Shown here in pieces: positions 10,174 through 27,232 of a stretch of DNA of 41,959 bases. The DNA is from Candidatus Choladousia intestinigallinarum. GTDB lineage: Bacteria > Bacillota > Clostridia > Lachnospirales > Lachnospiraceae. Position numbers and translations under genes: made by a program. The stretch covers positions 1 through 41,959 of the forward strand of contig DVGR01000061.1 of the NCBI GenBank assembly GCA_018712605.1, in the 5' to 3' direction. The stretch's first letter is position 1; each line of letters starts with the position of its first letter. The notes beneath the pieces are model-generated. The model was not told where the DNA came from, searched no databases, and saw nothing but the letters and a program-made list of their open reading frames with translations.

Positions 10174-10295
10174 TTCCGGTGCAGACGGCAGAGACTATAA
10201 TGCGCAGAGATTCGGAAAGGAATTACTGGCAAGCGAGTCTTGAACTGTGGGTGCAAGGTCATGGTGAAGGATCAAAGATGACGGAGGTGAGGGCG

Positions 10296-10871: not shown

Positions 10872-10903
10872 AAATTTTAAATATAGCAGGAGGAAAAAAG
10901 AAA

Positions 10904-11335: not shown

Positions 11336-11363
11336 GCTCTTCTGATTTACATAACGTTTAAGG

Positions 11364-11407
11364 AAGGATGTTAAGGCTCGTTTTTGGGGCTTTAACATCC
11401 TTTTTTT
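11364..11407 (+). terminator. Rho-independent terminator after the flavodoxin gene
   Basis: AAGGATGTTAAGGCTC (11364-11379) pairs with the GGGGC...CATCCTT arm (11386-11402) and runs into a stretch of seven or more T residues. Confidence 0.88.
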
Positions 11408-11440
11408 GACGGCAGATCTGAAAATACTGTGGGAAAACTC

Positions 11441-11471
11441 TTGACTTAGCCTGTACTCCAAGTTGTATTCT
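11441..11471 (+). promoter_or_regulatory. MerR-type promoter with 19-nt spacer
   Basis: TTGACT (11441-11446) and TATTCT (11466-11471) are separated by 19 nt. The spacer region is a partly palindromic CTTAG...TACTCCAAG. Over-long spacers with such CTT-AGxxTxxACTC-AAG operators are the hallmark of MerR-family activators. No merR gene is present in the window, so the regulator would act in trans. Confidence 0.55.
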
Positions 11472-11523
11472 ATAAATAACTGAGAATACTTTTCGAGACT
11501 GACAAAGGAAGGGGAATGAAAAG

Positions 11524-13403: not shown

Positions 13404-13432
13404 TTGTAAAATCAGGGGCAGTGTGGTAAAAT
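13404..13432 (+). promoter_or_regulatory. Promoter of the riboswitch-controlled Hdr-Flx-fumarate reductase operon
   Basis: TTGTAA (13404-13409) and TAAAAT (13427-13432) are 17 nt apart, giving a transcript that begins about 40 nt before the riboswitch P1 stem. Confidence 0.6.
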
Positions 13433-13481
13433 GTCCTAAATGTTATTTTTTTAACAGCAATACATGATAAAATTGACAATC

Positions 13482-13663
13482 ATACATAAGTTTCTGTAAA
13501 GAATTAATAGGGAATCCGGTGAGAATCCGGAGCGATCCCGTCACTGTGTATGCGAGCTTCCTTTTATGCCACTGCGGAGAAAGACAGCTTCTAGGGGAAA
13601 TGTCTGTAATCTGTGGGAAGGGAAAGGCGGCGATGACCTAAGCCAGGAGACCTGCTTATGTAT
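13482..13663 (+). promoter_or_regulatory. Cobalamin (B12) riboswitch
   Basis: The conserved cobalamin aptamer features occur in order. AATAGGGAA then a CCGGTGAGAATCCGG hairpin, CCCGTCACTGT (about 13536-13547), GCCACTG (13568-13574), GGGAAGG, GGCGGCGATGA and the B12 box AGCCAGGAGACCTGC (13641-13655) are all present. P1 closes perfectly: ATACATAAG (13482-13490) with CTTATGTAT (13655-13663). Downstream lie U-tract hairpins fitting a transcriptional OFF switch, so adenosyl- or another cobalamin would reduce expression of the operon starting at 13901. Class and ligand preference (adenosyl versus aquo/methyl) cannot be told by eye. Confidence 0.95.
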
Positions 13664-13715
13664 CAGGATGTTTCATCTACGGTGTATAGATGGTTCTTGT
13701 ATAGATGAGGAAAGA

Positions 13716-13754
13716 GAATTTCGGACGGCGCCATAACCGGGAGGATTCTTTTTT
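13716..13754 (+). terminator. Candidate expression-platform terminator of the riboswitch
   Basis: GAATTTCGG (13716-13724) pairs with CCGGGAGGATTC (13737-13748), with G-U pairs and a small bulge, and is followed by six T residues. It lies about 50 nt after P1, where the OFF-state terminator is expected. Confidence 0.55.
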
Positions 13755-13826
13755 GATGCGGACTGCAGCGGTACCGGCTAAGATCGGTTTAAGTGCAGTA
13801 CGATTTTTTACATGGACTTTTGAAAT

Positions 13827-13851
13827 ACAGCCGTACGGCTGTTTTTTTACA
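13827..13851 (+). terminator. Second hairpin with U-tract in the leader
   Basis: ACAGCC/GGCTGT with a GTAC loop, followed by seven T residues, stands only ~50 nt before the first gene. It may be a second regulated or leaky terminator. Confidence 0.6.
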
Positions 13852-13900
13852 TATCGACATGTTAAAAAAATAACAATAAAAATCAGGAAGGGAGATTTCT

Positions 13901-14770
13901 ATGAAGTACAGCTATTATCCGGGTTGTACCCTGAAAAACAAAGCAAAAGATCTGGACGCTTATGCCAGAGCTTCTGCAAGGGCGCTGGGATTTGAACTGG
14001 AAGAGATTGAGACCTGGCAGTGCTGCGGCGGAGTATATCCGTTGGGTACCGACGAGATCGCAACCAAGCTTTCTTCGGTGCGCGCTCTGAACGACGCCAG
14101 GGAAAAAGGCCAGGATCTGGTAACGGTCTGTTCTGCCTGTCATCATGTGATCAAACGTGTCAATGATGACATGAAACATGTGGAGGATATTCAAACCAGA
14201 GCGAATAATTATCTGCAGCTTGACGAGCCGTATACAGGCGAGACCCGTGTGCTGCACTATCTCGAAGTCCTGCGCGACGTGGTAGGCTTCGATGAACTGA
14301 AGAAAAAAGTAGTGAACCCGCTGAAGGGCAAAAAGATTGGCGCTTATTATGGCTGCCTGCTTCTTCGACCGAGCAGCATTATGGGATTTGATAATCCGGA
14401 GAATCCGAAGATCCTGGAAGATTTCATCCGTGCCATCGGTGCGGAACCGGTTCTGTATCCATATAGAAATGAGTGCTGCGGCGGATACATATCTCTGAAA
14501 GAGAAAGAAATGGCAAAGAATCTGTGCCATGACATCGTGGAGAGCGCGGAAGGCTTTGGAGCGGAAATGCTCATTACCGCCTGTCCTTTGTGTATGTACA
14601 ATCTGAAAAAAAGCACAGACGAAAAGCTTCCGGTGGTTTACTTTACGGAGCTTCTGGCGGAGGCGCTGGGCGTGAAGGACGAAGCGGAGGAGCTTATGAA
14701 GCATGCGGTTGACGCCACCTGGGGAGATACCGGTTGCGAAGCATGTGCGAAAGGGGTGGAGAACGCATGA
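13901..14770 (+). CDS. hdrB: HdrB-like subunit (CCG-domain, noncubane Fe-S)
   Basis: This protein of 289 residues is built from two CCG domains as in heterodisulfide reductase subunit B. First domain: YYPGC (Cys9), WQCCGG and CSACHH. Second domain: YYGCLLL, ECCGGY and CPLCMYN. These cysteines in HdrB hold two noncubane [4Fe-4S] clusters that form the disulfide- or thiol-reacting site. Bacteria lack the CoM-CoB heterodisulfide, so the natural acceptor here must be different; the fumarate reductase encoded downstream is the obvious candidate. GGAAGGGAG precedes the ATG. First gene of the riboswitch-controlled operon; its stop overlaps the next start (ATGA). Confidence 0.92.
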   Translation: MKYSYYPGCTLKNKAKDLDAYARASARALGFELEEIETWQCCGGVYPLGTDEIATKLSSVRALNDAREKGQDLVTVCSACHHVIKRVNDDMKHVEDIQTRANNYLQLDEPYTGETRVLHYLEVLRDVVGFDELKKKVVNPLKGKKIGAYYGCLLLRPSSIMGFDNPENPKILEDFIRAIGAEPVLYPYRNECCGGYISLKEKEMAKNLCHDIVESAEGFGAEMLITACPLCMYNLKKSTDEKLPVVYFTELLAEALGVKDEAEELMKHAVDATWGDTGCEACAKGVENA

Positions 14771-15156
14771 GTACCGTGAATAAACAGGCCGAGCAGATCA
14801 AAGAGATCAGCGGCGTAAATCCTTTAAAATGCATGAAATGCGGAAAATGTTCTGCGTCCTGTCCATCCTACAATGAGATGGATATCAAGCCTCATCAGTT
14901 TGTATCTTATGTCGTCAATGAAGATATTGAGTCGCTGGTTCAGTCGAAGTCTCTGTGGAAATGTCTCTCCTGCTTTGCCTGCGTAGAGCGCTGCCCGAGA
15001 GATGTCAAACCGGGTAAGCTGATCGACGCTGCAAGACAGATCGTGGTTCGCCAGAGGGATCAGGATTATCTGTCCCCGAACGAGATTCCGGAGCTTCTGG
15101 ATCCGGATGTACCGCAGCAGCTGCTTGTCAGCGCATTTAGAAGATACAGGAGGTAG
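14767..15156 (+). CDS. hdrC: HdrC-like iron-sulfur subunit
   Basis: This protein of 129 residues has two ferredoxin-type [4Fe-4S] motifs, CMKCGKCSASCPS (about 18-30) and CLSCFACVERCPRD (about 62-75), as in HdrC, which wires HdrA to HdrB. The ATG overlaps the HdrB stop in ATGA; the longer frame upstream lies inside hdrB and is rejected. The C-terminal part is short, without extra domains. The next gene begins 5 nt after its stop. Position between HdrB and HdrA supports one soluble HdrABC complex. Confidence 0.92.
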   Translation: MSTVNKQAEQIKEISGVNPLKCMKCGKCSASCPSYNEMDIKPHQFVSYVVNEDIESLVQSKSLWKCLSCFACVERCPRDVKPGKLIDAARQIVVRQRDQDYLSPNEIPELLDPDVPQQLLVSAFRRYRR

Positions 15157-15161
15157 GCCGG

Positions 15162-17150
15162 ATGCAAAGAATAGGAGTATTTGTCTGCCACTGCGGAAGC
15201 AATATTGCCGCTACGGTAGATGTGAAAAAAGTAGCCGAGATGGCTCTGATGGAGCCGGGCGTTGTCCATGCGGAAGATTACCAGTATATGTGTTCCGAAG
15301 CCGGACAGGCCAAAATCCAGGCAGCAATTCAGGAGAAAAACCTGACGGGTATCGTGGTATGTTCCTGTTCTCCGCGTATGCATGAGACCACATTCAGAAA
15401 TGCCGCACAAAGGGCAGGGCTGAATCCGTATATGGTGGAGATTGCCAACATCCGTGAGCATTGCTCCTGGATTCATAAAGACATGGAAGAGGCAACGAAA
15501 AAAGCAGTGATCCTGATGCGGGCTGCCATTGCCAAAGTAAATCTGAATACACCGCTGAAACCGGGCGAGAGCCGTGTAACCAAACGTGCGCTGGTCATCG
15601 GAGGCGGTATCGCAGGGATTCAGACTGCGCTGGATATCGCAGATGCGGGATATAAAGTAGATATCGTGGAGAAAACGCCCAGTATCGGCGGAAGAATGTC
15701 GCAGCTTGACAAGACCTTCCCCACTTTGGACTGTTCCGCATGTATCCTGACGCCGAAGATGGTAGAGGCAAACGCCCATGAAAATATTACCATCTATACA
15801 TATAGCGAGGTGGAAAAGGTATCCGGATTCGTAGGGGACTTTGTCGTTGACATCCGCAAGAAAGCCAGAAGCGTCAACATGGACAAATGTACCGGCTGCG
15901 GTGTCTGCCAGGAAAAATGTCCGTCAAAGAAAACGCCGAGCGAGTTTAACCGCGGGCTGAATACAAGAAGTGCAATTTACACACCCTTTGCTCAGGCCAT
16001 CCCGAACGTGCCGGTCATCGACCGTGAAAACTGCATCAAATTCAAAACAGGAAAATGCGGCGTCTGCGCAAAGGTTTGTCAGGCGGGAGCCATCGAGTAC
16101 GACCAACAGGATGAGATTATTACTGAGAAATATGGCGCAATCGTTGTAGCGACCGGATTCGATATGATCAAGTTGGACAACTATGACGAATATGCGTACA
16201 GTCAGAGCAAGGACATCGTTACCTCTCTGGAACTGGAGCGTATCATGAATGCAGCCGGCCCGACAAAAGGCCATCTGGAGAGACTCTCCGACGGCAAAGC
16301 GCCGAAGGAAATGGTATTTATCCAGTGTGTGGGAAGCCGCTGCGCAGACAACAGAGGAAAGAGCTATTGCTCCAAAATCTGCTGTATGTATACGGCAAAA
16401 CACGCGATGCTGATTCGCGATAAATATCCGGACGTCAATGTGACTGTATTCTATATCGACGTTCGTACACCAGGTAAAAACTTCGACGAGTTCTACAGAA
16501 GAGCCGTGGAAGATTACGGTGTGAATTATATCAAAGGTCAGGTCGGAAAAGTCATTCCGCAGCCAGGCGGCAAGCTGCTGGTTCGCGGCGTAGACCTGAT
16601 TGATAACAAGCAGATTCTGAAGGAAGCGGATATGGTTGTTCTGGCGGCGGCAATTGAGCCGAACCCGGACGTAAGAAAGATTGCAACCATGCTGACTGCA
16701 AGTATCGATACCAACAACTTCCTGACAGAAGCGCACGCGAAGCTTCGTCCGGTAGAATCGCCCACCGCAGGTATTTTCCTGTCCGGTGTATGCCAGGGCC
16801 CGAAGGATATTCCGGAGACGGTATCTCAGGCGGGAGCGGCTGCTGTCAAAGCAATCGGCCTTCTGGCAAAAGATAAACTGATGACCAACCCCTGTACCGC
16901 GCATTCCGATGAACTTCTGTGTAACGGATGTTCCCAGTGCGCGAACGTCTGCCCCTACGGAGCGATTTCCTATGAGGACAGACTGGTCAACGATCATGGT
17001 ATCCGTGAGACACGCCGTATCGCAGTGGTCAATAACGCACTGTGCCAGGGCTGCGGTGCTTGTACCGTAACGTGTCCGTCCGGAGCTATGGACCTGCAGG
17101 GATTCTCAAACAGACAGATTCTGGCGGAGGTAGATGCAATATGTCAATAG
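15162..17150 (+). CDS. hdrA: HdrA-like flavoprotein, predicted electron-bifurcating subunit
   Basis: This protein of 662 residues is full length for HdrA. The N-terminal domain (1-130) has VCHCGSNI, a later Cys and VVCSCSPRMHETTF, the ligands of the HdrA N-terminal cluster. The FAD-binding Rossmann motif is GGGIAGIQTALDIADAGY (about 147-164), followed by GGRMSQLDKTFP and LDCSAC. Ferredoxin motifs follow at about 245-258 (CTGCGVCQEKCP) and 290-305 (CGVCAKVC). C-terminal ones lie at about 587-600 (CNGCSQCANVCP) and 627-640 (CQGCGACTVTCP). In methanogens HdrA FAD splits electron pairs between ferredoxin and the HdrB acceptor. In this operon the electrons should come from FlxA through MvhD/FlxD. 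All cysteines are Cys codons; no selenocysteine was seen. Confidence 0.93.
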   Translation: MQRIGVFVCHCGSNIAATVDVKKVAEMALMEPGVVHAEDYQYMCSEAGQAKIQAAIQEKNLTGIVVCSCSPRMHETTFRNAAQRAGLNPYMVEIANIREHCSWIHKDMEEATKKAVILMRAAIAKVNLNTPLKPGESRVTKRALVIGGGIAGIQTALDIADAGYKVDIVEKTPSIGGRMSQLDKTFPTLDCSACILTPKMVEANAHENITIYTYSEVEKVSGFVGDFVVDIRKKARSVNMDKCTGCGVCQEKCPSKKTPSEFNRGLNTRSAIYTPFAQAIPNVPVIDRENCIKFKTGKCGVCAKVCQAGAIEYDQQDEIITEKYGAIVVATGFDMIKLDNYDEYAYSQSKDIVTSLELERIMNAAGPTKGHLERLSDGKAPKEMVFIQCVGSRCADNRGKSYCSKICCMYTAKHAMLIRDKYPDVNVTVFYIDVRTPGKNFDEFYRRAVEDYGVNYIKGQVGKVIPQPGGKLLVRGVDLIDNKQILKEADMVVLAAAIEPNPDVRKIATMLTASIDTNNFLTEAHAKLRPVESPTAGIFLSGVCQGPKDIPETVSQAGAAAVKAIGLLAKDKLMTNPCTAHSDELLCNGCSQCANVCPYGAISYEDRLVNDHGIRETRRIAVVNNALCQGCGACTVTCPSGAMDLQGFSNRQILAEVDAICQ

Positions 17151-17584
17151 AAGCAAAGGAAGAATTCAGACCGAAAATCGTAGCGTTCTGCTGTAACTGG
17201 TGCAGCTACGCAGGCGCCGATCTGGCAGGCAGCAGCCGTTTGGCTTATCCTGCCGATGTAAAGATTATCCGCGTACCCTGCTCCTGTCGTGTGAATCCGA
17301 TGTTTATCCTGCGTGCTTTTGAAAAGGGCGCGGACGGAGTGATCCTCTGCGGATGCCACCCGGGAGACTGCCATTACAGTACCGGTAACTATTACGCGAG
17401 AAGACGTATGACGCTGTTGTTCTCCATGCTGGATTATCTGGGCGTGGAAAACGGACGTACCCGTGTGGAATGGGTATCGGCAGCGGAAGGCGTGAAATTC
17501 TCTACTACCATGAATGAATTCGTAGAAAAAATTTATTCTCTCGGTAAGAATGTAAGATTGGGGGATTTGAGATGCAGGCAATAA
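17141..17584 (+). CDS. flxD: MvhD/FlxD-like [2Fe-2S] electron-transfer subunit
   Basis: This protein of 147 residues is of the MvhD family (hydrogenase iron-sulfur subunit, delta). CCNWCSYAGADLAG near the N-terminus, RVPCSCRVNP, and CGCHPGDCHYSTGNYYARRR are the family's ordered cysteine motifs that bind a [2Fe-2S] cluster. MvhD docks on HdrA and passes electrons from a hydrogenase, formate dehydrogenase or Flx module. Its start at 17141 overlaps the hdrA stop by 10 nt, and its end overlaps the next gene by 13 nt. No hydrogenase gene is in the operon, so the electron donor should be the Flx subunits that follow. Confidence 0.92.
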   Translation: MSIEAKEEFRPKIVAFCCNWCSYAGADLAGSSRLAYPADVKIIRVPCSCRVNPMFILRAFEKGADGVILCGCHPGDCHYSTGNYYARRRMTLLFSMLDYLGVENGRTRVEWVSAAEGVKFSTTMNEFVEKIYSLGKNVRLGDLRCRQ

Positions 17585-18546
17585 TTGATCGCGCGAAGGA
17601 ATTGCTGGCTGACGGAACGGTAGCCCGCGTTCTCGGCTGGAAAGCCGGAGACCTGCCCTACAATCCGGAACCGGCTTACTTCGAGAAAGAAGAAGACTTT
17701 AAAGATTTTGTATATAACGGCTTCTGCGGAGCGAATCTGAGTAAGCTCATGATTGAAGCCTGCAAGCTGGAAGGAAAAACCATGGTTTGCCTGAAACCCT
17801 GCGATACCTACAGCTTCAACCAGCTTTTGTCAGAGCACCGCATAGACCGCGAGAAAGCGTATATCGTGGGCGTGGGCTGCAAGGGCAAGCTGGATATCGA
17901 GCGCATGAGAAAAATGGGCATCAAGGGAATCAAGAGCATCAGCGGCGCGGAGATGACGGATGACTGCGAAACACTGACCATCCAGACCATCTACGGCGAA
18001 AAAACCTGCAAATACGCGGACGCTATGCTGGAAAGGTGCCATGTGTGCAAGGGGAAAGAGCATAAAATCTATGACGAAATCATCGGCGAGTCCAAAGATA
18101 CTCAGGATGCAGAACGTTTTGCGGAGGTGGAGCGTATCGAGGCCATGAGTCCGGAAGAAAAATTTGCTTATTTCCAGAAGGAATTAAGCAAATGTATCCG
18201 CTGTAATGCCTGCAGAAATGCCTGTCCGGCCTGTAGCTGCCGCAAATGCGTCTTTGACAGCACCAAGTTTGACAGCGCGCAGAAAGCCAACGTGGATTCT
18301 TTTGAAGAAAAAATGTTCCATATCATTCGTGCTTTCCATGTGGCAGGAAGATGTACCGACTGCGGCGAATGCAGCCGCGTATGTCCGCAGGGCATTCCGC
18401 TTCATCTGTTCAACCGCAAGTTCATCAAAGATATCGATGAATTTTACGGAGAGTATCAGGCAGGAGAAGAAGTGGTAGAGAAAGGACCGCTGACCAGCTA
18501 TACGTTTGAGGACGTAGAGCCGGGTATCGTGGCAGAAAGGGGATAA
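17572..18546 (+). CDS. flxC: FlxC-like iron-sulfur protein (FrhB/FdhB-like N-terminus plus dicluster ferredoxin)
   Basis: This protein of 324 residues. The N-terminal half (about 1-190) resembles the FrhB/FdhB-related domain with CLKPCDTYSF, GVGCKGKLD and RCHVCKGKEH. Then come CIRCNACRNACPACSCRKC (about 204-222) and CTDCGECSRVCPQGIP (about 262-277), two [4Fe-4S] ferredoxin sites. GGGGGA lies before the ATG, which overlaps flxD. This arrangement beside HdrABC, MvhD and two more redox subunits matches the FlxABCD-HdrABC module described in Desulfovibrio and other anaerobes, where FlxBC link a flavin NAD(H)-oxidising subunit to FlxD. The letter assignment (B or C) is by similarity of layout, so it could be reversed. 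Confidence 0.82.
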   Translation: MQAIIDRAKELLADGTVARVLGWKAGDLPYNPEPAYFEKEEDFKDFVYNGFCGANLSKLMIEACKLEGKTMVCLKPCDTYSFNQLLSEHRIDREKAYIVGVGCKGKLDIERMRKMGIKGIKSISGAEMTDDCETLTIQTIYGEKTCKYADAMLERCHVCKGKEHKIYDEIIGESKDTQDAERFAEVERIEAMSPEEKFAYFQKELSKCIRCNACRNACPACSCRKCVFDSTKFDSAQKANVDSFEEKMFHIIRAFHVAGRCTDCGECSRVCPQGIPLHLFNRKFIKDIDEFYGEYQAGEEVVEKGPLTSYTFEDVEPGIVAERG

Positions 18547-18549
18547 TGT

Positions 18550-19590
18550 ATGTATAAGATAGCGAAAGAAAATCTGTCGGCATTATTCCAGAAGATTGCC
18601 GAGAGTCAGGAATTATACCTGCCCATCGAGAATTGCGGCCAGGTGAATTACGGGGTTTGGACGGAGGATGCCGACGTCAATCTGGACGTTTTAAAAACCG
18701 TCAAATCTCCCAAGGATGCATTTTTTCCGCAGAGTGAAAATCTGTATACCGTAAAAAGAACCGGAAAGAAGCTTTCTGTCGAACCGGAAGCGCTGAAAGA
18801 ACAGAAATTTGTGGTATTCGGTATGAAAGCCTGCGATGTGCAGGGTGTGGAAGTACTGGATAAAGTCTTTTTGGCAGAACCGGTCGATACCTTTTATCGT
18901 GCCAGAAGAGAGCATGGAACCATCGTGGCTATGGCCTGCCATGAGCCGGAGGAAACCTGCTTCTGCAAGGTGTTCGGCATCGACTGCGCGGATCCGAAGG
19001 CGGACGTCGCAACCTGGATGGTGGACGGCCAGCTTTGCTGGAAAGCGCTGACAGAGAAGGGCGAGGCGCTGACAGAGACAGTCAAAGAGCTGCTGACGGA
19101 GGATGCGGCCATGGATGAAAAAGTGGAAGCGGAGAAAGCGACCATCCACAGCATCACAGAGCAGCTTCCCTATATGGCTCTTTCACTGGAAGGCTGGGGC
19201 GGCGACGCTCTCGATGCCAAATTCAACTCCCCGCTCTGGGAGGAACTGCATAAACCATGTCTGGCCTGCGGCACCTGTACCTTCGTGTGTCCGACCTGCC
19301 AGTGTTATGATATCAAAGATTACGATACGGGACACGGCGTTTCGCGCTACCGCTGCTGGGATTCCTGCATGTACTCTGACTTTACCATGATGGCTCACGG
19401 CAACAACCGTACCAGCCAGATGCAGAGATACCGCCAGAGATTCATGCACAAGCTGGTGTATTTCCCGGCAAACAACGACGGCATGTTTTCCTGTGTGGGC
19501 TGCGGCCGCTGTGTGGAAAAATGTCCGCAGTCGCTGAATATCGTGAAAGTCATCAAAGCCTTTGCGAATCAGGGAGGTGAAAACGCATGA
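18550..19590 (+). CDS. flxB: FlxB-like 4Fe-4S dicluster protein (AsrA-like)
   Basis: This protein of 346 residues is like anaerobic sulfite reductase subunit A/FlxB. The N-terminal ~230 residues include CDVQGVEVLDKVF and the Cys-rich ACHEPEETCFC. Two ferredoxin motifs follow, CLACGTCTFVCPTCQCYD (about 237-254) and CVGCGRCVEKCPQSL (about 315-329). RYRCWDSCMYSDFTMMAHG between them is typical of the family. It should carry electrons from FlxA to the rest of the complex. Its stop overlaps the next start (ATGA). No sulfite reductase catalytic (siroheme) subunit is present, which argues for Flx rather than Asr function. Confidence 0.87.
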   Translation: MYKIAKENLSALFQKIAESQELYLPIENCGQVNYGVWTEDADVNLDVLKTVKSPKDAFFPQSENLYTVKRTGKKLSVEPEALKEQKFVVFGMKACDVQGVEVLDKVFLAEPVDTFYRARREHGTIVAMACHEPEETCFCKVFGIDCADPKADVATWMVDGQLCWKALTEKGEALTETVKELLTEDAAMDEKVEAEKATIHSITEQLPYMALSLEGWGGDALDAKFNSPLWEELHKPCLACGTCTFVCPTCQCYDIKDYDTGHGVSRYRCWDSCMYSDFTMMAHGNNRTSQMQRYRQRFMHKLVYFPANNDGMFSCVGCGRCVEKCPQSLNIVKVIKAFANQGGENA

Positions 19591-20441
19591 GTGAATGTAC
19601 CTGTCATACCAATTACACCCTGGATACCTTGATTCCGAAGGTAGGTGTGATTACGGATATCCGCGAGGAAACGCCGGATGTAAAAACCTTCCGCGTCAAC
19701 GCGCCGGACGGCGGAAAACTGTTCGAGCATATGCCGGGGCAGTGCGCCATGCTTTGTGCGCCGGGCATCAGCGAGGGAATGTTCTCCATAACCTCGTCCC
19801 CGACCAATAAGGAATATCAGGAATTCAGTATTAAAAAGTGCGGTATGCTGACAGATTACCTGCACAGCCTGCAGGTAGGAGATGAGATCACTGTCCGCGG
19901 ACCGTACGGAAACCATTTCCCGGTAGAGGATAAATTAAAGGGCAAAGACCTTCTGTTCATCGCCGGAGGTATCGGACTTGCGCCGCTTCGTTCGGTTATC
20001 AATTATGTTCTGGATAACCGGGCAGATTACGGAACGGTAGATATCGTATACGGCTCCCGTTCCGCTGACGACCTGGTACAGTTAAAAGAAATCCAGGAAG
20101 TCTGGATGAAAGCGGAAAACGTCAATGTCCATCTGACCATTGACCGTGAGCAGGAAGGCTGGGACGGCCATGTGGGATTTGTTCCGAATTATGTAAAAGA
20201 ACTGGGGTTTGACGTGAACAAAACAGCGCTGATTTGCGGACCGCCGATCATGATCAAATTTACACTGGCGGGACTGCAGGAGCTGGGATTCTCCACCGAG
20301 CAGGTGTACACCACTCTGGAGCTGCGTATGAAATGCGGTATCGGCAAATGCGGCCGCTGCAACGTAGGCTCCAAGTATGTCTGCAAAGACGGACCGGTAT
20401 TCCGCTGTGATGAACTGAACGAACTGCCGAACGAGTATTGA
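19587..20441 (+). CDS. flxA: FlxA-like FAD/NAD(P)H oxidoreductase subunit (AsrB/ferredoxin-NADP reductase-like)
   Basis: This protein of 284 residues has a ferredoxin-NADP+ reductase fold. The FAD-binding barrel has GMFSITSSPTN (equivalent of the RxYS motif, with Ser-Ile-Thr). LLFIAGGIGLAPLRS (about 129-143) begins the NAD-binding domain, and ICGPPIMIKF is the C-terminal nicotinamide motif. A C-terminal [2Fe-2S] site is CGIGKCGRCNVGSKYVC (about 252-268). It should oxidise NADH or NADPH and feed the FlxBCD-HdrABC chain. This is the entry point for electrons in the absence of a hydrogenase. It ends the first block of the operon; a 269-nt structured gap follows before the reductase genes. Confidence 0.9.
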   Translation: MSECTCHTNYTLDTLIPKVGVITDIREETPDVKTFRVNAPDGGKLFEHMPGQCAMLCAPGISEGMFSITSSPTNKEYQEFSIKKCGMLTDYLHSLQVGDEITVRGPYGNHFPVEDKLKGKDLLFIAGGIGLAPLRSVINYVLDNRADYGTVDIVYGSRSADDLVQLKEIQEVWMKAENVNVHLTIDREQEGWDGHVGFVPNYVKELGFDVNKTALICGPPIMIKFTLAGLQELGFSTEQVYTTLELRMKCGIGKCGRCNVGSKYVCKDGPVFRCDELNELPNEY

Positions 20442-20700
20442 TTTGATGCCAGGGTCAAAAGGTCAGGCTTTTCATGCTTGCATGAAAAAGCATGACTTTG
20501 GGACCCGCCAAAACATGAAAAAGTAGCCCGATAGGGCGGATTTTGAATGTTTTTAGGATTGCGGGAGCATGAAATGCGCAGCAATCCGTGGGCATCAAAG
20601 ACATTTAATAGTGCAGGAGGATAGGGCGAACGCCCTCAAGCGAAAGCTGCGAAGCAGCGTGAGCCTGCACTTTGAAACGGTATAAAGATGAAAGGAAATG
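20442..20700. repeat. Highly structured intergenic element (two closed multi-hairpin modules)
   Basis: Module A runs from TTTGATGCC (about 20441-20450) to GGGCATCAAA (about 20590-20600), which pair as a closing stem. Inside are GGGTC/GACCC, a TTTTCATG/CATGAAAA hairpin, a GCCCGATAGGGC hairpin and GGATTGC/GCAATCC. Module B is closed by AGTGCAGG/CCTGCACT (about 20612-20672). It contains AGGGCG/CGCCCT and GCTGC/GCAGC hairpins. There is no open reading frame of note and no clean U-tract. It separates the Flx genes from the reductase genes in an otherwise tightly packed operon. I take it as an inserted repeat-type element or an RNA processing/stability element. Confidence 0.6.
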
Positions 20701-20710
20701 GTATTGAAGC

Positions 20711-21385
20711 ATGGAAAATATGGTAAACGTATATTTTTTCGGTAAGAAATACACCGTACCTGCGGATCTGACGATCATGACAGCCATGGAATATGCCGGC
20801 TACACTCTGAAAAGAGGCTGCGGATGCCGTCATGGTTTCTGCGGTGCCTGTGCTACGATCTACAGAATCAAAGGGAAAAACGAGCTGAAAACCTGTCTGG
20901 CATGTCAGACACAGGTTCAGGAAGGGATGTATGTGGCAAGCATTCCCTTCTTCCCTACAGATAAGAGAACCTATGACATTAATGAGATTCGTCCGAATCA
21001 GCAGATCATGATGGAACTGTACCCGGAAATCTACAGCTGTATCGGATGCAACGCCTGTACAAAAGCCTGCACCCAGGATCTTAACGTTATGCAGTACATC
21101 GCCTACGCGCAGAGAGGCGACTTTGAGAAATGCGCGGAGGAATCCTTCGACTGCGTAGCCTGCGGCTGCTGTTCCGTAAGATGTCCGGCGGGCATCTCCC
21201 ATCCGATGGTAGGCCTTCTGGCGAGACGTCTGACAGGAAAATATATTGCTCCCGAAAGCGAGCACCTGACCAAACGGGTAGAAGAGGTAAATGCAGGAAA
21301 ATACGACGATCTGATTGAGCAGATTATGCAGAAACCGATTACCGAAATGCAGGAACTTTACAATAACAGAGACATTGAGAAATAA
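20711..21385 (+). CDS. Fumarate reductase iron-sulfur subunit (soluble FrdB/TfrB-like)
   Basis: This protein of 224 residues. The N-terminal ferredoxin domain holds a [2Fe-2S] site: GCGCRHGFCGACA (about 36-48) and a later CLACQ (about 65-69). The C-terminal domain has CIGCNACTKAC (about 109-119) and CVACGCCSVRCPAG (about 148-161). Both are CxxCxxCxxxC, so two [4Fe-4S] clusters are predicted, unlike classical FrdB/SdhB, whose second C-terminal site binds [3Fe-4S]. No membrane-anchor subunit is encoded nearby, so the enzyme is expected to be cytoplasmic and not quinone-linked. The only SD-like sequence, AAAGGA, lies 14 nt before ATG 20711, a weak initiation site. Confidence 0.88.
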   Translation: MENMVNVYFFGKKYTVPADLTIMTAMEYAGYTLKRGCGCRHGFCGACATIYRIKGKNELKTCLACQTQVQEGMYVASIPFFPTDKRTYDINEIRPNQQIMMELYPEIYSCIGCNACTKACTQDLNVMQYIAYAQRGDFEKCAEESFDCVACGCCSVRCPAGISHPMVGLLARRLTGKYIAPESEHLTKRVEEVNAGKYDDLIEQIMQKPITEMQELYNNRDIEK

Positions 21386-21397
21386 GGAGGGCAGAAT

Positions 21398-23008
21398 ATG
21401 TATACACCATATCCGGAAAATATGATGGAATCCGTTAAGAAGGTGGAGGCTACCAGAGCAGAACGTATGGCGACAGAGCCGAGACGTCTGACTGCAGATG
21501 AAAAAGATGCCCTCTTGAAAGAATTTCATCCGGACTACAGACCAGAAGCTTTTGAAGAGATCAAGGTTGGCCAGAACAAAGGACAGAAAGCCCCGCTGGA
21601 ATTGGCAGCGATGCTTCACTCCAATAGCCGTATTTACGGGGAACACATTGATCTTGGCAAAGTGGATTATGACGTGGATGTGCTTGTCATCGGCGGCGGC
21701 GGTGCGGGCTCTTCCTGTGCCATCGAGGCGCACAACGCAGGCGCGAATGTCATGATTGTAACCAAGCTTCGTATCGGTGACGCCAACACCATGATGGCGG
21801 AAGGCGGTATTCAGGCTGCTGATAAAGAAAATGATTCTCCCGTTCAGCATTATCTGGACTGCTTTGGCGGCGGACATTTTGCGGCAAAACCGGAACTGGT
21901 TAAGAAGCTGGTTATGGAAGCTCCGGACGCAATTAAATGGCTGAATGAGCTGGGTGTGGAATTCGACAAGGATGCAGACGGAACCATGATTACCACTCAT
22001 GGCGGCGGAACATCCAGAAAGAGAATGCATGCGGCAAAGGATTATTCCGGTGCGGAAATCATGCGTACCGTAAGAGATGAAGTGCTGAACCTGGGTATTC
22101 CAGTTGTAGAATTTACCGCTGCGGTAGAGCTGATTAAGGATGATAAAGGCCAGGTTGCGGGAGCTGTTCTTCTGAACATGGAGACCGGAGATTACTCTGT
22201 TGCGAAAGCGAAAACCGTTGTCATCGCAACGGGCGGAGCGGGAAGAATGCATTATCAGGGATTCCCGACTTCCAACCACTACGGAGCGACGGCGGACGGA
22301 CTGATCCTGGGCTACAGAGCCGGTGCGCCGCTTCTGTATCAGGATTCCATTCAGTATCATCCGACGGGAGCGGTTTACCCGTCCCAGATTCTGGGCGCTC
22401 TGGTAACAGAAAAGGTACGTTCCGTGGGAGCGCAGCTGGTAAATGCCAACGGAGAAGCTTACATCCATCCGCTGGAGACCCGTGACGTGAATGCTTCCGG
22501 CGTTATCCGCGAGTGTAAGGAAGGCCGCGGCGTCGATGTGCCGGGCGGACAGCAGGGCGTATGGCTGGATACCCCGATGATTGAGATTCTCGGAGGCGAG
22601 GGCACCATTGAAAAGAGAATTCCCGCTATGTTCCGTATGTACATGAACTATGGAATCGATATGAGAAAAGTGCCGATTTTGATTTACCCGACCCTTCATT
22701 ATCAGAACGGCGGACTGGAAATCAACGCAGATGGATTTACGAACGCAATCCCGAACCTTCTGGTAGCGGGAGAAGCAGTGGGAGGAATCCACGGAAGAAA
22801 CCGTCTGATGGGCAACTCTCTGCTGGATATCATCGTATTCGGCAGAAATGCAGGAAAAGCTGCGGCTGCGAAAGCAAAAGAAGTGGAACTGGGAACCATG
22901 AATCTGGATCACGTGGAAGCATATGCAAAAGAACTGGAAGAAGCCGGCCTTCACACTGGCGACGTATCCCCGCGTCTTCTGCCGAAATATGCCCGCCACG
23001 AGAGATAA
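21398..23008 (+). CDS. Fumarate reductase flavoprotein subunit (soluble FrdA/TfrA-like, no covalent-FAD His)
   Basis: This protein of 536 residues. An N-terminal extension of ~90 residues precedes the FAD dinucleotide motif VIGGGGAGSSCAIEA (about 97-111). Active-site residues of the fumarate reductase family are present: His321 in QYHPTG, Arg362 in TRDVNAS, His434 in LHYQNGG and Arg469 in HGRNRL. At the position where FrdA/SdhA carry the His that binds FAD covalently, the sequence is ANTMMAEGG with Asn130, so FAD should be non-covalent. In E. coli FrdA, loss of that His removes succinate oxidation but keeps fumarate reduction, which favours the reductive direction here. AAGGAGG lies before the ATG. 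Aspartate oxidase is an alternative, but the FrdB partner and fumarase neighbours argue against it. Confidence 0.88.
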   Translation: MYTPYPENMMESVKKVEATRAERMATEPRRLTADEKDALLKEFHPDYRPEAFEEIKVGQNKGQKAPLELAAMLHSNSRIYGEHIDLGKVDYDVDVLVIGGGGAGSSCAIEAHNAGANVMIVTKLRIGDANTMMAEGGIQAADKENDSPVQHYLDCFGGGHFAAKPELVKKLVMEAPDAIKWLNELGVEFDKDADGTMITTHGGGTSRKRMHAAKDYSGAEIMRTVRDEVLNLGIPVVEFTAAVELIKDDKGQVAGAVLLNMETGDYSVAKAKTVVIATGGAGRMHYQGFPTSNHYGATADGLILGYRAGAPLLYQDSIQYHPTGAVYPSQILGALVTEKVRSVGAQLVNANGEAYIHPLETRDVNASGVIRECKEGRGVDVPGGQQGVWLDTPMIEILGGEGTIEKRIPAMFRMYMNYGIDMRKVPILIYPTLHYQNGGLEINADGFTNAIPNLLVAGEAVGGIHGRNRLMGNSLLDIIVFGRNAGKAAAAKAKEVELGTMNLDHVEAYAKELEEAGLHTGDVSPRLLPKYARHER

Positions 23009-23027
23009 AAAGGAAGGAGGTCATTCG

Positions 23028-23870
23028 ATGCGTGAAATAGAAGTAAGTCGGCTGACGGATGTGATCGAAGAGCTTTGTATCGAAGCCAATAACCATCTGC
23101 CGAAGGATGTCAAATGTGCCATTCAGGACTGCCGTGCCTGCGAGGACGGAGAGATTGCCAGGGGCGTTCTGGACAACATCATAGAGAACTTTGAAATTGC
23201 CGATCGGGAAAACGTTCCCATTTGTCAGGATACCGGTATGGCCTGCGTGTTCCTGGAGATTGGACAGGACGTGCATTTTACGGGTGGAGATCTGACGGAT
23301 GCCATCAACGAAGGTGTGCGCCGCGGATATGACAAAGGATATCTTAGAAAATCCGTTGTAAAGGATCCGGTTCGCCGTGGAAATACAGGAGACAATACAC
23401 CGGCCATGATTTATACGGAGATTGTTCCAGGCGAAAACGTAAAGATAACCGTTGGCCCCAAGGGCTTCGGAAGTGAAAATATGAGCCAGATTCGTATGTT
23501 CAAGCCGTCCCACGGGATCGAGGGAATTAAGAACTTTATCCTGGAAGTAGTGGAAACAGCAGGCCCCAATCCCTGTCCGCCGATGGTAGTGGGTGTAGGA
23601 ATCGGAGGAACCTTCGACAAATGCGCCCTCCTTGCCAAGAAAGCGCTGATGCGTCCGCTGGATTCTGAAAATCCGGATCCCTATTACGCAGATCTGGAAA
23701 AAGAAATGCTGGAGAAAATCAATAAGCTGGGTATCGGCCCCCAGGGCTTTGGCGGAAAGACCACAGCCCTTGGAGTCAACATCGAGACGCTACCCACCCA
23801 CATTGCGGGAATGCCCTGTGCGGTGAATATTAACTGCCACGTGACCCGGCATAAGACGGAGGTGATTTAA
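23028..23870 (+). CDS. Class I fumarate hydratase, alpha subunit (two-subunit type)
   Basis: This protein of 280 residues corresponds to the N-terminal catalytic half of class I [4Fe-4S] fumarase. CAIQDCRACEDG, NVPICQDTGMACVF, RGNTGDNTPAMIYTEIVPG and GGTFDKCALLAKKAL are family motifs. The cluster cysteines include those in QDTG-preceding IC, NPCPP and FDKC. ATG 23028 lies behind AAGGAGG; the longer frame upstream overlaps the reductase gene. Together with the next gene it interconverts malate and fumarate, supplying the acceptor for the reductase just upstream. L-tartrate dehydratase has the same architecture, but the fumarate reductase context supports fumarase. Confidence 0.9.
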   Translation: MREIEVSRLTDVIEELCIEANNHLPKDVKCAIQDCRACEDGEIARGVLDNIIENFEIADRENVPICQDTGMACVFLEIGQDVHFTGGDLTDAINEGVRRGYDKGYLRKSVVKDPVRRGNTGDNTPAMIYTEIVPGENVKITVGPKGFGSENMSQIRMFKPSHGIEGIKNFILEVVETAGPNPCPPMVVGVGIGGTFDKCALLAKKALMRPLDSENPDPYYADLEKEMLEKINKLGIGPQGFGGKTTALGVNIETLPTHIAGMPCAVNINCHVTRHKTEVI

Positions 23871-23872
23871 TC

Positions 23873-24436
23873 ATGGAAAAACGGATACAGCTTCCACTGA
23901 CAAGAGAACTGGCCAGAACCCTGGAGGCGGGAGATACGGTATACGTAACCGGCACTATCTATACCTCCCGGGACGCAGGGCATAAGAGGATGTGCGAGGC
24001 CCTGGCAAGGGGGGAAAAGCTTCCCTTTGACCCGGAAAACGCAACTATTTACTATGTGGGTCCCACACCGGCCAAGCCGGGACAGGTGATCGGCTCCGCT
24101 GGACCCACCACCAGCGGCCGTATGGATGCGTACGCTCCTACCATGATGAGAGCCGGAGCCAGAGGGATGATCGGAAAAGGCGCAAGACTTCCGGAGGTCA
24201 TAGAGGCGATGAAGGAATGCGACGGTGTTTACTTTGGAGCCATCGGGGGGGCCGGAGCACTTTTGGCAAAGTGCATAAAAAAGAGCGAGCTGATCGCCTA
24301 TGAGGATCTGGGAGCGGAGGCTTTGAGAAAACTGTACGTGGAGGATATGCCTCTGGTAGTGATCATCGACAGCCAGGGGAGAAATCTATATGAAGAGGGC
24401 AGAAAGGCATACTTAAAAGCCTGTCAGGAGAAATAA
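23873..24436 (+). CDS. Class I fumarate hydratase, beta subunit
   Basis: This protein of 187 residues is the C-terminal swivelling domain of class I fumarase as a separate chain. DTVYVTGTIYTSRDAGHKRM, YVGPTPAKPGQVIGSAGPTTSGRMD and GKGARLPEV are the defining motifs. It begins 2 nt after the alpha-subunit stop behind GGAGGTGA. Tight spacing implies equal production of the two chains. Codon choices here look closer to the flanking host genes than those of the Hdr/Flx genes, by eye. Confidence 0.92.
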   Translation: MEKRIQLPLTRELARTLEAGDTVYVTGTIYTSRDAGHKRMCEALARGEKLPFDPENATIYYVGPTPAKPGQVIGSAGPTTSGRMDAYAPTMMRAGARGMIGKGARLPEVIEAMKECDGVYFGAIGGAGALLAKCIKKSELIAYEDLGAEALRKLYVEDMPLVVIIDSQGRNLYEEGRKAYLKACQEK

Positions 24437-24468
24437 AGAATTTCTGGCCGCAGGGAGGGACGGAAAAG

Positions 24469-25047
24469 ATGCAGAGAGAAGAACTTGAGAAATACTGTAA
24501 AGACCAGGGGGCTTATGCGGCAAAAGTGATTTCTGTGAAGGAGATTGAATTTGACCCGTCCTTCCGCAAATACTGCGAAGATAATGTGTGCGGGCAATAC
24601 GGCAGGAATTATGCCTGTCCCCCTTATGCGGGGACGCCTCAGGAATTGAAGGAGAGAGCCTGTGCTTTTAGGCAGGCAGTCGTGTTTCAGACGGTAACGC
24701 CTCTGGAAGGGGGAATGACGGAGGATAGCCTTCAAGCTGCCAAAAATCAGAATAACCAGGTGGGAGACGCAATTCAAGAGAGGCTGGAGACAGAGAAGCG
24801 CAGGAGTCTTCGTGCCAGAGCCGGGCAGTGCAGCTACTGTACGGAGTGCGAAGCCTTGAAGGGAAAGCCCTGCACGTATCCCCCTAAGGGACAGATTTCT
24901 CTGTCGGCTTTCTGTGTAAATGTAGCCTCTCTGGCTGAGACATGTGGGATGAAGTTTCAAAACGGGGAGAATACCCTGACTTATTTTGGAGTAATTTTCT
25001 TCGGGGATCTGGAGGAAGAGTCCAAGAAGAAAGAGGATCCCGTATAA
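24469..25047 (+). CDS. DUF2284 predicted metal-binding protein
   Basis: This protein of 192 residues has the DUF2284 cysteine pattern: CGQYGRNYACPPYAGT near residue 43, CSYCTECEALKGKPCTYP near 122-139 and a later ETCGM. At least eight conserved Cys suggest one or two Fe-S clusters or zinc sites. A GGGAGGGACGG site precedes the ATG. It lies 32 nt after the fumarase beta gene on the same strand with no terminator between, so it probably belongs to the riboswitch-controlled operon. Function is unknown; a role in maturation or electron transfer for the complex would be a guess. Confidence 0.82.
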   Translation: MQREELEKYCKDQGAYAAKVISVKEIEFDPSFRKYCEDNVCGQYGRNYACPPYAGTPQELKERACAFRQAVVFQTVTPLEGGMTEDSLQAAKNQNNQVGDAIQERLETEKRRSLRARAGQCSYCTECEALKGKPCTYPPKGQISLSAFCVNVASLAETCGMKFQNGENTLTYFGVIFFGDLEEESKKKEDPV

Positions 25048-25153: not shown

Positions 25154-27232
25154 CTAGAATATGGATAAGGCTACAAACAGGGAAGACAGCAGGGAGGCCA
25201 CCAGGGAAACCACAGTAATCTGGGTATTGATGGAAGGGCCAGCTGTATCCTTGAAAGGATCGCCCACGGTGTCTCCGGTAACGGCGGCTTTGTGAGCTTT
25301 GGAGCCTTTTCCGCCTTCATTTCCTGCTTCTATGTATTTCTTGGAGTTATCCCACAGGCCGCCTGCGTTGGACATAAACAGAGCCAGCAGAAGTCCGCTT
25401 ACGATGTTTCCAAGAAGGAATCCGCCGATAGCCAGTACGCCGCCGATGAAGCCTACGATAATTGTCGAGAGGATAGCCATAGCGCCGGCGGGAATCAGCT
25501 CTCTCAGGGCGCCGGTGGTGGCGATGTCTATACACTTGTCGTAGTCCGCCTTTACCCCGGGCTTGCCTTCCTTTAATCCCTTGATTTCCCGGAACTGCCG
25601 GTGAATTTCCGCTACCATACGCTGCGCATTCTTATCCACGCCAAGAATCAGCATTGCGGAGAATACGGCAGGTACGGCTGCACCGATCAGAACTCCGAAG
25701 AAAACGGTGGGATCCATGATGTCAAAGCCTGTGATCAGCTCCCGGCCCAGGCTGGCCAGAGTTGCGTTTACTTCGGACATATATGCTCCCAGAAGGGAGA
25801 TAACCGTTAGGCCGGCTGCGCCGATGGAAAATCCTTTTGTCACGGCCTTTACCGTATTTCCGGCGCTGTCCAGTTCATCGGCAATGCGGATCGTCTCTTC
25901 GCCCAATCCTCCCATCTCGGCCAATCCTCTGGCGTTGTCTACGATGGGGCCGTAAGCGTCGTTTCCGATAATCATGCCTACGATGGAAAGCATGCCCACG
26001 GCAGCCATGGCAATGCCGAACAGTGCATAAGTGGTTCCCATGGGTTCACAGAGCTTATAAGCTACCAGTGCGGAGACTGCGATTCCGATCATAGCCGGCA
26101 GTGCGGAAATAAATCCATAAGAGACGCCGGAGAGAACCGTGAAAGCAGAACCGGACTGTGAAGCTTTTGCCACTTTCTGGACGATGGGTTTGCTGTCATC
26201 TGTAAAGTAATCAGTAGTAAGGCCGATCACCACGCCTACCAGGAGGCCTACTGTGGAGGCGCCCCAGATCCGCCAGTCAAAGCCCTCTATTAAATAGGTA
26301 GCCAGAGCGGAGAGAAGGACGAAAATTCCTGTAGTCACATAGGTAGAAGAATTCAGAGCCTTTGTGGGATTGCCGTTTTTGCCGATTCTGGCGCTGGCAA
26401 TACCCAGGATGGAAGCGATCAGGCCAAGAGCGGAATAACAGAACACCATAGAAGCGCCTGCCTGTTCATATCCCGTAAGAGACTGGGAGATAACAAGAGC
26501 CGAAGTCATGGCAGCTACGTTGGAATCAAAGAGATCAGCGCCCATACCGGCTACATCGCCTACGTTGTCGCCTACATTATCTGCGATTACGGCAGGATTT
26601 CTGGGATCATCCTCCGGGATGCCCAGCTCCACTTTACCAGTAAGGTCTGCAGATACATCGGCTGTCTTTGTGAAGATTCCTCCGCCGGCTTTGGCGAAAA
26701 GTGCCAGGGAACTGGCGCCAAAGGAAAAGCCCAGCAGAATAGAGGCGTCTGAGGTGATCATCAGAACGGCCATGACGCCCAGGAGACAGAAGCCCACAAC
26801 GGCCAGTCCCATAACGGCGCCGCCCCTGAAGCCTACCAGAAACGCTGGCTTAATGCCTTTCTCGGCAGCTTCCGCTGTACGGGCATTGGCCAGGGTGGCT
26901 ACCAGGATTCCGATTTTACCAGCGATGGCCGAAAGAATCGTGCCTGCGATGTACGCCAGGGCCATAGAAAGATTATCCAGAAACTTTCCCTGCCATATGG
27001 GCTGCGGCAGAATCAAAAAGATGATAATGGCTGCTACCCCGGCAAAAATCGTCAGTATTTTGTATTCTCGGGCCATAAATGTATTTGCGCCGTCTTTGAT
27101 CAGCCGGGAAACCCTGAGAATCTCTTTGTTCACAGCTTTCTGCTGTTTAACCCACAAATACAGATAAGCCGCAAAGGCAAAAGCAACAATAATTGCCAGG
27201 AAACAGATTGCGTAGATAAACGACGGGACCAT
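25154..27232 (-). CDS. hppA: Membrane-bound proton-pumping pyrophosphatase, K+-independent type
   Basis: This protein of 692 residues has about 16 hydrophobic segments. The catalytic loops are DVSADLTGKVE, then EDDPRNPAVIADNVGDNVGD (about 215-235). Further Asp/Lys-rich motifs lie near the C-terminus (GDTVGDPFKDTAGPS). It hydrolyses pyrophosphate and pumps cations across the cytoplasmic membrane. The residue that sets K+ dependence is Lys462 in GNTVKAVTKGF, with Thr465 three residues on. K+-dependent enzymes have Ala here, so this belongs to the K+-independent, normally H+-pumping class. AAGGAGGGGG precedes the ATG. Its own promoter and terminator flank it. Confidence 0.95.
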   Translation of the reverse strand: MVPSFIYAICFLAIIVAFAFAAYLYLWVKQQKAVNKEILRVSRLIKDGANTFMAREYKILTIFAGVAAIIIFLILPQPIWQGKFLDNLSMALAYIAGTILSAIAGKIGILVATLANARTAEAAEKGIKPAFLVGFRGGAVMGLAVVGFCLLGVMAVLMITSDASILLGFSFGASSLALFAKAGGGIFTKTADVSADLTGKVELGIPEDDPRNPAVIADNVGDNVGDVAGMGADLFDSNVAAMTSALVISQSLTGYEQAGASMVFCYSALGLIASILGIASARIGKNGNPTKALNSSTYVTTGIFVLLSALATYLIEGFDWRIWGASTVGLLVGVVIGLTTDYFTDDSKPIVQKVAKASQSGSAFTVLSGVSYGFISALPAMIGIAVSALVAYKLCEPMGTTYALFGIAMAAVGMLSIVGMIIGNDAYGPIVDNARGLAEMGGLGEETIRIADELDSAGNTVKAVTKGFSIGAAGLTVISLLGAYMSEVNATLASLGRELITGFDIMDPTVFFGVLIGAAVPAVFSAMLILGVDKNAQRMVAEIHRQFREIKGLKEGKPGVKADYDKCIDIATTGALRELIPAGAMAILSTIIVGFIGGVLAIGGFLLGNIVSGLLLALFMSNAGGLWDNSKKYIEAGNEGGKGSKAHKAAVTGDTVGDPFKDTAGPSINTQITVVSLVASLLSSLFVALSIF

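Follow-up and report, generated by a model that had tools for sequence, protein, structure and literature searches.

A cobalamin riboswitch ahead of a probable electron-bifurcating fumarate reductase operon in Candidatus Choladousia intestinigallinarum

Genes and leader of the operon

Contig DVGR01000061.1 of Candidatus Choladousia intestinigallinarum (assembly GCA_018712605.1), analyzed over its whole length of 41,959 nucleotides and referred to here as the window, carries an operon of 12 genes located 3′ of a cobalamin riboswitch and a terminator-like hairpin. The genes, all plus-strand open reading frames with family support, follow the order hdrB-hdrC-hdrA-flxD-flxC-flxB-flxA-frdB-frdA-fumA-fumB-DUF2284 and end at 25047. 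The operon probably codes for a soluble, electron-bifurcating fumarate reductase, and its expression would be gated by NADH through Rex-like sites and, in the genus of the window, by corrinoid.

The leader, also read on the plus strand, opens with a promoter-like site (TTGTAA, 17 nt, TG-TAAAAT; 13404 to 13432) found in a consensus scan, whose 9 of 12 matches are weak alone and whose −10 region resembles that of the G150 leader, from the same genus. Directly 3′ of the −10 hexamer, a motif scan detected a Rex-box-like palindrome, TGTTATTTTTTTAACA (13441 to 13456), followed by the riboswitch aptamer (RF00174; 13471 to 13673), which matches the full-length Rfam model at 99.4 bits against a cut-off of 31.5. 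An intrinsic terminator-like hairpin (13827 to 13842) with its U run extends to 13849 and is presumed to be the expression platform, and a second Rex-box-like palindrome, TGTTAAAAAAATAACA (13860 to 13875), lies 5′ of the hdrB ribosome-binding site.

According to family and motif scans, hdrB (13901 to 14770) encodes a protein with two CCG motifs, hdrC (14767 to 15156) one with two [4Fe-4S] ferredoxin-like motifs, and hdrA (15162 to 17150) an FAD- and Fe-S-containing subunit with a candidate bifurcation site. They are followed by flxD of the MvhD/FlpD family (17141 to 17584), flxC for an Fe-S subunit with a Fer4_8 domain that was named by its position in the flx set (17572 to 18546), flxB for a sulfhydrogenase-beta/AsrA-like Fe-S subunit (18550 to 19590), and flxA, whose product has FAD- and NAD-binding domains and a DHODB-type 2Fe-2S domain (19587 to 20441). 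The frdB product (20711 to 21385) has a 2Fe-2S and two 4Fe-4S motifs, and frdA (21398 to 23008) encodes a fumarate reductase flavoprotein which, in alignments, is extended by about 90 residues at its N terminus and ends in a short C terminus. The α and β chains of a class I fumarase are encoded by fumA (23028 to 23870; PRK06246 over its cut-off) and fumB (23873 to 24436), and a DUF2284 protein gene (24469 to 25047) closes the operon. The starts of hdrC, flxD, and fumA are refined ones, the family scans having used starts 1 to 4 codons further upstream. A preliminary description of this locus, made from the sequence alone, had reported a B12 riboswitch and this gene set on one strand with minimal gaps. 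All of this was borne out, as neighboring genes overlap or lie at most 32 bp apart, the sole exception being a 269-bp gap (20442 to 20710) in which no plus-strand terminator was predicted.

Conserved gene order and the proposed enzyme

The preliminary description had proposed looking for a conserved hdr-flx-frd order. An FrdA-alignment scan of genome contigs yielded at least 560 confirmed relatives, of which the best 80 loci were kept, and same-genus and family stretches were added. Two duplicates, L184 (= L030) and L194 (= L097), were removed from the order, conservation, malate dehydrogenase, and leader counts. Upstream of frdA, 8 kb or more of sequence was available in 65 loci, 64 of them besides the window, and every one shows the order hdrB-hdrC-hdrA-flxD-flxC-flxB-flxA-frdB-frdA, so the gene set is not a matter of chance. 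The fumA gene is directly next in 33 of 67 loci with enough downstream sequence and follows an insert of 0.6 to 3 kb in 21; in L064, this insert is an AspT-type permease gene whose product might export succinate. Of the 69 loci that contain hdrB (the two duplicates included), 43 have a dehydrogenase gene no more than 1.5 kb upstream of it, and the product of this gene has an arginine at the specificity position in 41/41 loci (39 by pattern and 2 by eye, duplicates removed). NCBIfam names the one member scanned an L-lactate dehydrogenase; we take the arginine to be a mark of malate dehydrogenases and read the enzyme as one on that rule. In many relatives the unit thus comprises malate dehydrogenase, fumarase, fumarate reductase, and Hdr-Flx, which, as far as gene content tells, is a reductive arm from oxaloacetate to succinate. 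Of the loci compared by tblastn, only the window and G150 have the DUF2284 gene at the operon end. The operon region of G152 contains a glycine riboswitch 3′ of its fum genes (L097, 13505 to 13597).

The protein features agree with the order in tying an NADH-type Flx-Hdr module to a soluble fumarate reductase and fumarase, as the preliminary description had suggested. Residues 3 to 659 of HdrA align with the methanogen HdrA structure 5odc_A over its full length (E = 3e-204), E359 and K413 being aligned to 5odc E356 and K409, positions which we take to sit near the bifurcating flavin. Against NCBIfam, HdrA scores 791 bits to HdrA2 and falls below the cut-offs of the methanogen HdrA models. The features expected of FlxABCD-HdrABC are present, namely the FAD and Fe-S domains of HdrA, two CCG motifs in HdrB, and two 4Fe-4S motifs in HdrC; FlxD (MvhD), FlxB, and FlxA with its NAD, FAD, and 2Fe-2S domains also fit, and FlxC does so by position and its Fer4 domain only. 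Conservation was counted on 61 hdrB, 72 hdrA, and 89 frdA rows, those whose matched stretch was interrupted by an in-frame stop having been dropped. The HdrB CCG cysteines are invariant in 61/61 rows. In FrdA, H321, R341, H434, and R469 are kept in 89/89 rows at complex II active-site positions of the alignment, and N130 stands in 89/89 rows where relatives with covalent FAD have a histidine; the roles of the four residues and of the FAD-linking position are presumed from such enzymes. Asparagine in place of the FAD-linking histidine favors fumarate reduction. The predicted fold of FrdA is closest to E. coli FrdA (1kf6), as judged from an AlphaFold model of moderate confidence (mean pLDDT 75.9) used for the fold match only.

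Based on these features, we infer that the Flx-Hdr and Frd proteins form a complex in which HdrA bifurcates electrons and HdrB passes them directly to FrdB. FlxA would oxidize NADH, and FlxBC and FlxD would relay the electrons to the flavin of HdrA. There the paths would split, one electron reducing ferredoxin and the other passing along HdrC, HdrB, FrdB, and FrdA for the reduction of fumarate to succinate. The predicted stoichiometry is 2 NADH + fumarate + oxidized ferredoxin → succinate + reduced ferredoxin, which is plausible because the potential drop between NADH and fumarate is large enough to drive the reduction of ferredoxin. Fumarate would be supplied by FumAB and, in many relatives, also by way of the linked malate dehydrogenase, and the reduced ferredoxin could feed CO2 reduction or Rnf, the latter as a candidate route.

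A complex driven by NADH without bifurcation, or running in reverse to oxidize succinate, is very unlikely in our estimate. It would accord with Blautia luti, whose fumarate reductase activity (504 mU/mg on glucose, in crude extract) is methyl viologen linked and is modeled by the authors as plain NADH dependent, according to the available text of PMC12773636. It accords poorly with a full-length HdrA of the bifurcating type in which E359 and K413 are aligned, with the asparagine that replaces the FAD-linking histidine in every FrdA row, and with Rex-like operators upstream.

The FrdBA pair was also followed outside the close relatives. This FrdA is present in 39/398 Bacillota genomes spread over the phylum, at 100% identity in the genome of the window itself and at 52 to 62% in the others, from which 39 stretches were fetched (38 genomes, two stretches from G290), some of them ending at a contig edge. 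Hdr genes stand beside these divergent FrdBA in 20/39 stretches (hdrB in 18, and hdrA in 2, which are cut), among different neighbors. Among the gene orders seen are hdrCB together with additional HdrA-like genes, flxD, and frdBA (L209 to L215 and others), frdBA followed by hdrBCA-flxD (L230, L234, L240, and L241), hdrCBA-flxDCBA-frdBA (L242), and fum-hdrCB-frdBA on stretches that contain neither hdrA nor flx (L235, L237, and L239). This last arrangement points to HdrBC as the contact of FrdBA and is the best hint of a direct contact between them. Malic-enzyme-like (L217) and pyruvate carboxylase-like (L224) genes were recognized by eye next to hdr-free FrdBA. We take these arrangements as evidence that FrdBA has Hdr as one of its electron inputs and that this input module can be exchanged. 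In two stretches, the neighbor of FrdBA was read by eye, as a protein carrying several CxxCH motifs in L243 and as a ferredoxin-like gene in L246, suggesting that this FrdA family may work with alternative donors or acceptors.

Several observations weigh against the bifurcating complex. No hdr gene occurs in 17/39 divergent stretches, and 2 more have a weak hdrC-like match only, so that, with some stretches cut short, Frd does not seem always to depend on Hdr; fumA is missing nearby in 13/67 close loci; and HdrB keeps intact disulfide-type clusters, which makes a thiol/disulfide step possible. The hdr-free stretches and the two complete CCG motifs of HdrB would also suit a scheme in which FrdAB and Flx-Hdr share an operon without forming a complex, Flx-Hdr bifurcating to a small disulfide or DsrC-like carrier and FrdAB drawing on another carrier. 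We regard that scheme as improbable, given that frdB follows flxA directly and co-linearly in 65/65 loci, that the fum-hdrCB-frdBA loci lack hdrA and flx in the stretch, and that FrdB, in which motif and domain scans found no CCG domain, lacks one for thiol use. The preferred reading remains the bifurcating fumarate reductase complex.

The riboswitch leader and its genomic context

For Rex, TTGTTAANNNNTTAACAA is given as the Clostridiaceae motif in the available text of PMC9600882. In the 700 bp preceding the operon, 42/63 leaders contain a site with at most 3 mismatches to this motif, versus a mean of 5.6 (standard deviation, 2.1) in 50 sets of shuffled leaders. In the window itself, the riboswitch lies between two perfect TGTTA-N6-TAACA sites, out of 13 such sites in the 1.56 Mb of loci read, and the genome of the window encodes one protein with a Rex-type DNA-binding domain (one Pfam domain only). 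NADH would gate expression through these putative operators, a control that fits an NADH-consuming sink.

For the riboswitch, a strict B12-box regular expression, which among the 80 loci and the window matched in the window alone, was replaced by an nhmmer profile trained on 48 other aptamers. The profile recovered the window and four same-genus leaders, with one added match among the 80 loci at E ≤ 0.001, located downstream of the operon in L044; a match in L056 (E = 0.028) was excluded from the counts. An Rfam search of L033 to L035, L041, L044, L056, L077, L078, L082, L091, L097, L184, L187, and L192 found no cobalamin riboswitch except that of L044. Within the genus of the window, where frdA occurs in 14/47 genomes, an Rfam search of the 13 other genomes placed a cobalamin riboswitch 7.4 to 9.0 kb upstream of frdA in G150, G173, G177, and G195. 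The riboswitch therefore precedes the operon in 5/9 readable same-genus loci, the window included; it is missing from the readable leaders of G153, G172, G190, and G152, and five further loci are cut by contig ends. None of the 54 other readable leaders has one in the profile search, four of them offering just 399 to 526 bp of upstream sequence and some perhaps belonging to the genus unrecognized. The difference between 5/9 and 0/54 corresponds to a Fisher p of about 2e-5 with kinship ignored. In 15 family genomes, where in most cases part of the candidates was scored (at most 90 per genome), none was found upstream of frd (at least the contigs of G044 and G057 end before the operon start), and G013 has one about 6 kb downstream of frdA; none was found in the 39 divergent FrdBA stretches, some of which also end before the operon start. 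The association of riboswitch and operon proposed in the preliminary description is hence real and, so far, confined to this genus.

Within the genus, the first gene behind the riboswitch differs, being hdrB in the window and G150, a malate dehydrogenase gene in G177 and G195, and a [FeFe]-hydrogenase-like gene, by eye, in G173. The latter, of the monomeric kind and likewise assigned by eye, heads the riboswitch-led hdr-flx-frd operon of G173 (L185, reverse strand, 4633 to 6210) and suggests H2 as an input or output. The aptamers of G173, G177, and G195 share just 49 to 53% identity with those of the window and G150, and their nearest matches, at 74 to 83%, are riboswitches ahead of spoIVA. 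The two dissimilar groups, compared by pairwise identity and no tree, are read as at least two recruitments of a cobalamin riboswitch to this operon in the genus. Between the window and G150, the aptamer is 92% identical (187/203), versus 42/55 in the promoter, 111/153 in the spacer (together 73 to 76%), and 68 to 77% in the whole hdrB, hdrA, frdA, and fumA genes, which indicates that selection acts on this aptamer. The two loci also share the leader and the DUF2284 tail gene, and their HdrA and FrdA sit on distant branches of a midpoint-rooted tree; on these grounds, the operon genes may have been replaced while the leader was retained.

In the genus of the window, ample B12 would cause the riboswitch to stop the leader transcript, and a shortage of corrinoid, by limiting the Wood-Ljungdahl sink, would release the fumarate branch. 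The preliminary description had put forward acetogenesis and the methylmalonyl-CoA route as the corrinoid-dependent routes whose block would call for fumarate reduction. The genome of the window encodes, side by side, carbon monoxide dehydrogenase (CODH), acsB, two CdhD-type corrinoid protein subunits, a pterin-binding methyltransferase, and RACo, a corrinoid reactivator; acsB occurs in 35/47 genomes of the genus, including all five with the riboswitch (G177 by a partial match). Methylmalonyl-CoA mutase was matched in 0/47 genus genomes, this one included (E ≤ 1e-20, many assemblies being incomplete), and the methylmalonyl-CoA route was consequently rejected. With a Wood-Ljungdahl cluster present and no mutase match, acetogenesis is the likelier B12-dependent alternative of the two on genomic grounds, and the source organism is probably an acetogen.

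A number of findings speak against such B12 control. The tract conserved between the window and G150 exceeds the aptamer, reaching 87% in the terminator (20/23), 82% from the terminator to hdrB (42/51), and 83% in the first 60 nt of hdrB (50/60). Folding of both leaders forms the terminator with or without the aptamer, and an antiterminator sought in the same way was not found. In the other architectures, a sense-strand terminator-like site is present in L188 and, with a poor U run, in L185, and none is present in L189. Most relatives, B. luti and Blautia schinkii among them, lack the riboswitch, as do four loci within the genus, so the fumarate reductase system can do without B12 control. Genomes lacking the riboswitch also have acsB, which does not separate the two groups, and the riboswitch-free species include both B. 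luti and B. schinkii, the latter being presumably an acetogen. B. luti is an acetogen, and phosphinate, which blocks the formate supply to its Wood-Ljungdahl pathway, was without effect on fumarate reductase activity in this riboswitch-free species, according to the available text of PMC12773636. Folding likewise revealed no simple terminator/antiterminator switch and no alternative structure. The 12-kb region has 17 terminator-like sites, versus 12.4 in shuffles, so the support for the terminator comes from its position and conservation.

Part of this evidence would suit a hitch-hiking or decayed leader with no regulatory meaning for fumarate reduction, namely the absence of the riboswitch from 54/54 readable leaders outside the genus and 4/9 within it, the missing antiterminator, and the shared leader of the window and G150 in front of proteins on distant branches. 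We nonetheless find this unlikely in view of the high identity of the aptamer relative to the promoter, spacer, and genes, and because the aptamers fall into at least two dissimilar groups and stand before first genes of three kinds. Returning to a functional switch, we infer an off-switch that responds to B12 and serves a physiological choice. The chances seem to us about even that cobalamin riboswitches, recruited at least twice in one genus of probably acetogenic Lachnospiraceae, let corrinoid supply choose between Wood-Ljungdahl acetogenesis, which depends on B12, and a B12-independent, ferredoxin-yielding reduction of fumarate. If so, B12 would govern an alternative catabolic route rather than its own uptake or synthesis or an isozyme that works without it; fumarate would be an electron dump with extra energy saved, used when the B12-dependent acetate route runs short of B12; and B12 supply would steer such acetogens between acetate and succinate, metabolites with different community fates.

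The genome contains five cobalamin riboswitches, the one ahead of the operon and others preceding genes for a periplasmic-binding protein with an FecCD permease, an SBP_bac_5 transporter, a run from a hemB-like gene (by eye) to cobU-cobS, and spoIVA. A cobalamin riboswitch lies about 0.4 kb ahead of spoIVA in five genus genomes (L011, L165, L166, L176, and L182; assigned by Pfam for the genome of the window and by eye for the others), following a folD-like frame in L165, L166, and L182. A link between B12 and sporulation would be odd.

Elsewhere in the operon, the gap between flxA and frdB holds a Clostridiales-1 RNA element (RF01699; 20444 to 20597, plus strand, 138.7 bits). A role as an operon-specific small RNA was rejected on 61 matches in the same genome, 48 of them over the cut-off. 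Across the 11 genomes searched, the matches range from 0 to 61, with 61 in this genome, 36 to 46 in three genus mates, and 0 to 3 in the other seven. The ends of the element are inverted (TGATGCC...GGCATCA), and no copy occupies this position in the 13 other loci whose flxA-frdB gap exceeds 120 bp or in the close relative G172; the element behaves as a dispersed repeat inside the operon and is probably not a functional part. A second hairpin (GTGCAGG...CCTGCAC; 20611 to 20670) lies between it and frdB. The 5′ neighbors of the operon (6559 to 12003) encode a pyruvate formate-lyase, a radical SAM protein (activase by position), a DUF3793 protein, and two flavodoxins; a membrane pyrophosphatase gene (25154 to 27232) converges on the operon, and a T-box leader occupies 3219 to 3479.

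Comparison with known systems

The Hdr-Flx module of the window is common to FlxABCD-HdrABC of Desulfovibrio vulgaris, reportedly described by Ramos et al. in 2015; that unit is not known to include a fumarate reductase or fumarase. Methanogen thiol:fumarate reductase, TfrAB, had been invoked in the preliminary description, and the analogy is partial: the best NCBIfam score of FrdA is to the TfrA model (333 bits, below the cut-off of 718), but TfrB has a CCG domain, whereas the FrdB of the window lacks this half and HdrB is separate. HdrB in turn resembles SdhE, the CCG protein paired with fumarate reductase in the 8-methylmenaquinol:fumarate reductase SdhABE, at 151 bits; this does not reach the SdhE cut-off of 500 bits, and the window adds HdrC, HdrA, and Flx. 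The available text of PMC6776011 holds nothing on an Hdr-linked fumarate reductase.

Among cultured strains, B. luti (L033) has the same operon without a cobalamin riboswitch upstream, unlike the window; its FrdA is 90% identical, and its two other FrdA matches reach 31 to 32%. The available text of PMC12773636 reports succinate, malate dehydrogenase activity, and a high frdAB transcript in this species, and suggests that on sorbitol, without a functional Wood-Ljungdahl pathway, succinate might serve as a sink next in rank after lactate; its main text as available does not use the terms Hdr, cobalamin, or B12. Since B. luti has the same enzyme set, the electron supply of soluble clostridial fumarate reductases can be tested in a cultured strain. 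If the proposed bifurcation is true, the fumarate branch would add about 0.56 ATP per succinate via ferredoxin, using the Rnf and ATP synthase stoichiometries given in the available text of PMC12773636, and the published energy balance of B. luti, built there on a plain NADH-dependent enzyme, may need revision.

The closest precedent is the "succinate operon" of Pseudoclostridium thermosuccinogenes, for which PMC7282089 cites a 2019 preprint by Koendjbiharie and van Kranenburg. By the description in the available text of PMC7282089, it has the same gene set, with a fumarate hydratase, seven Flx-Hdr tags, and two fumarate reductase tags, matching the fum, seven flx-hdr, and frdBA genes found in one operon in the window, and it also has a possible succinate transporter. 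Fumarase is listed first there and stands last in the window. When CO2 was limiting, the operon was upregulated about 4-fold, although the change was not significant for all subunits, and ferredoxin-coupled fumarate reduction had already been proposed. The enzyme idea is therefore not new, and the novelty that the preliminary description had tentatively given to the Hdr-Flx-Frd-fumarase combination does not stand. That text as available mentions no riboswitch, whereas the window operon has one. Among the open PMC papers listed for cobalamin riboswitches with fumarate reductase, Wood-Ljungdahl, or heterodisulfide reductase, no sign of B12 control of this enzyme was seen. The enzyme system is thus a known one, and the riboswitch on the fumarate reductase operon looks like the new part.

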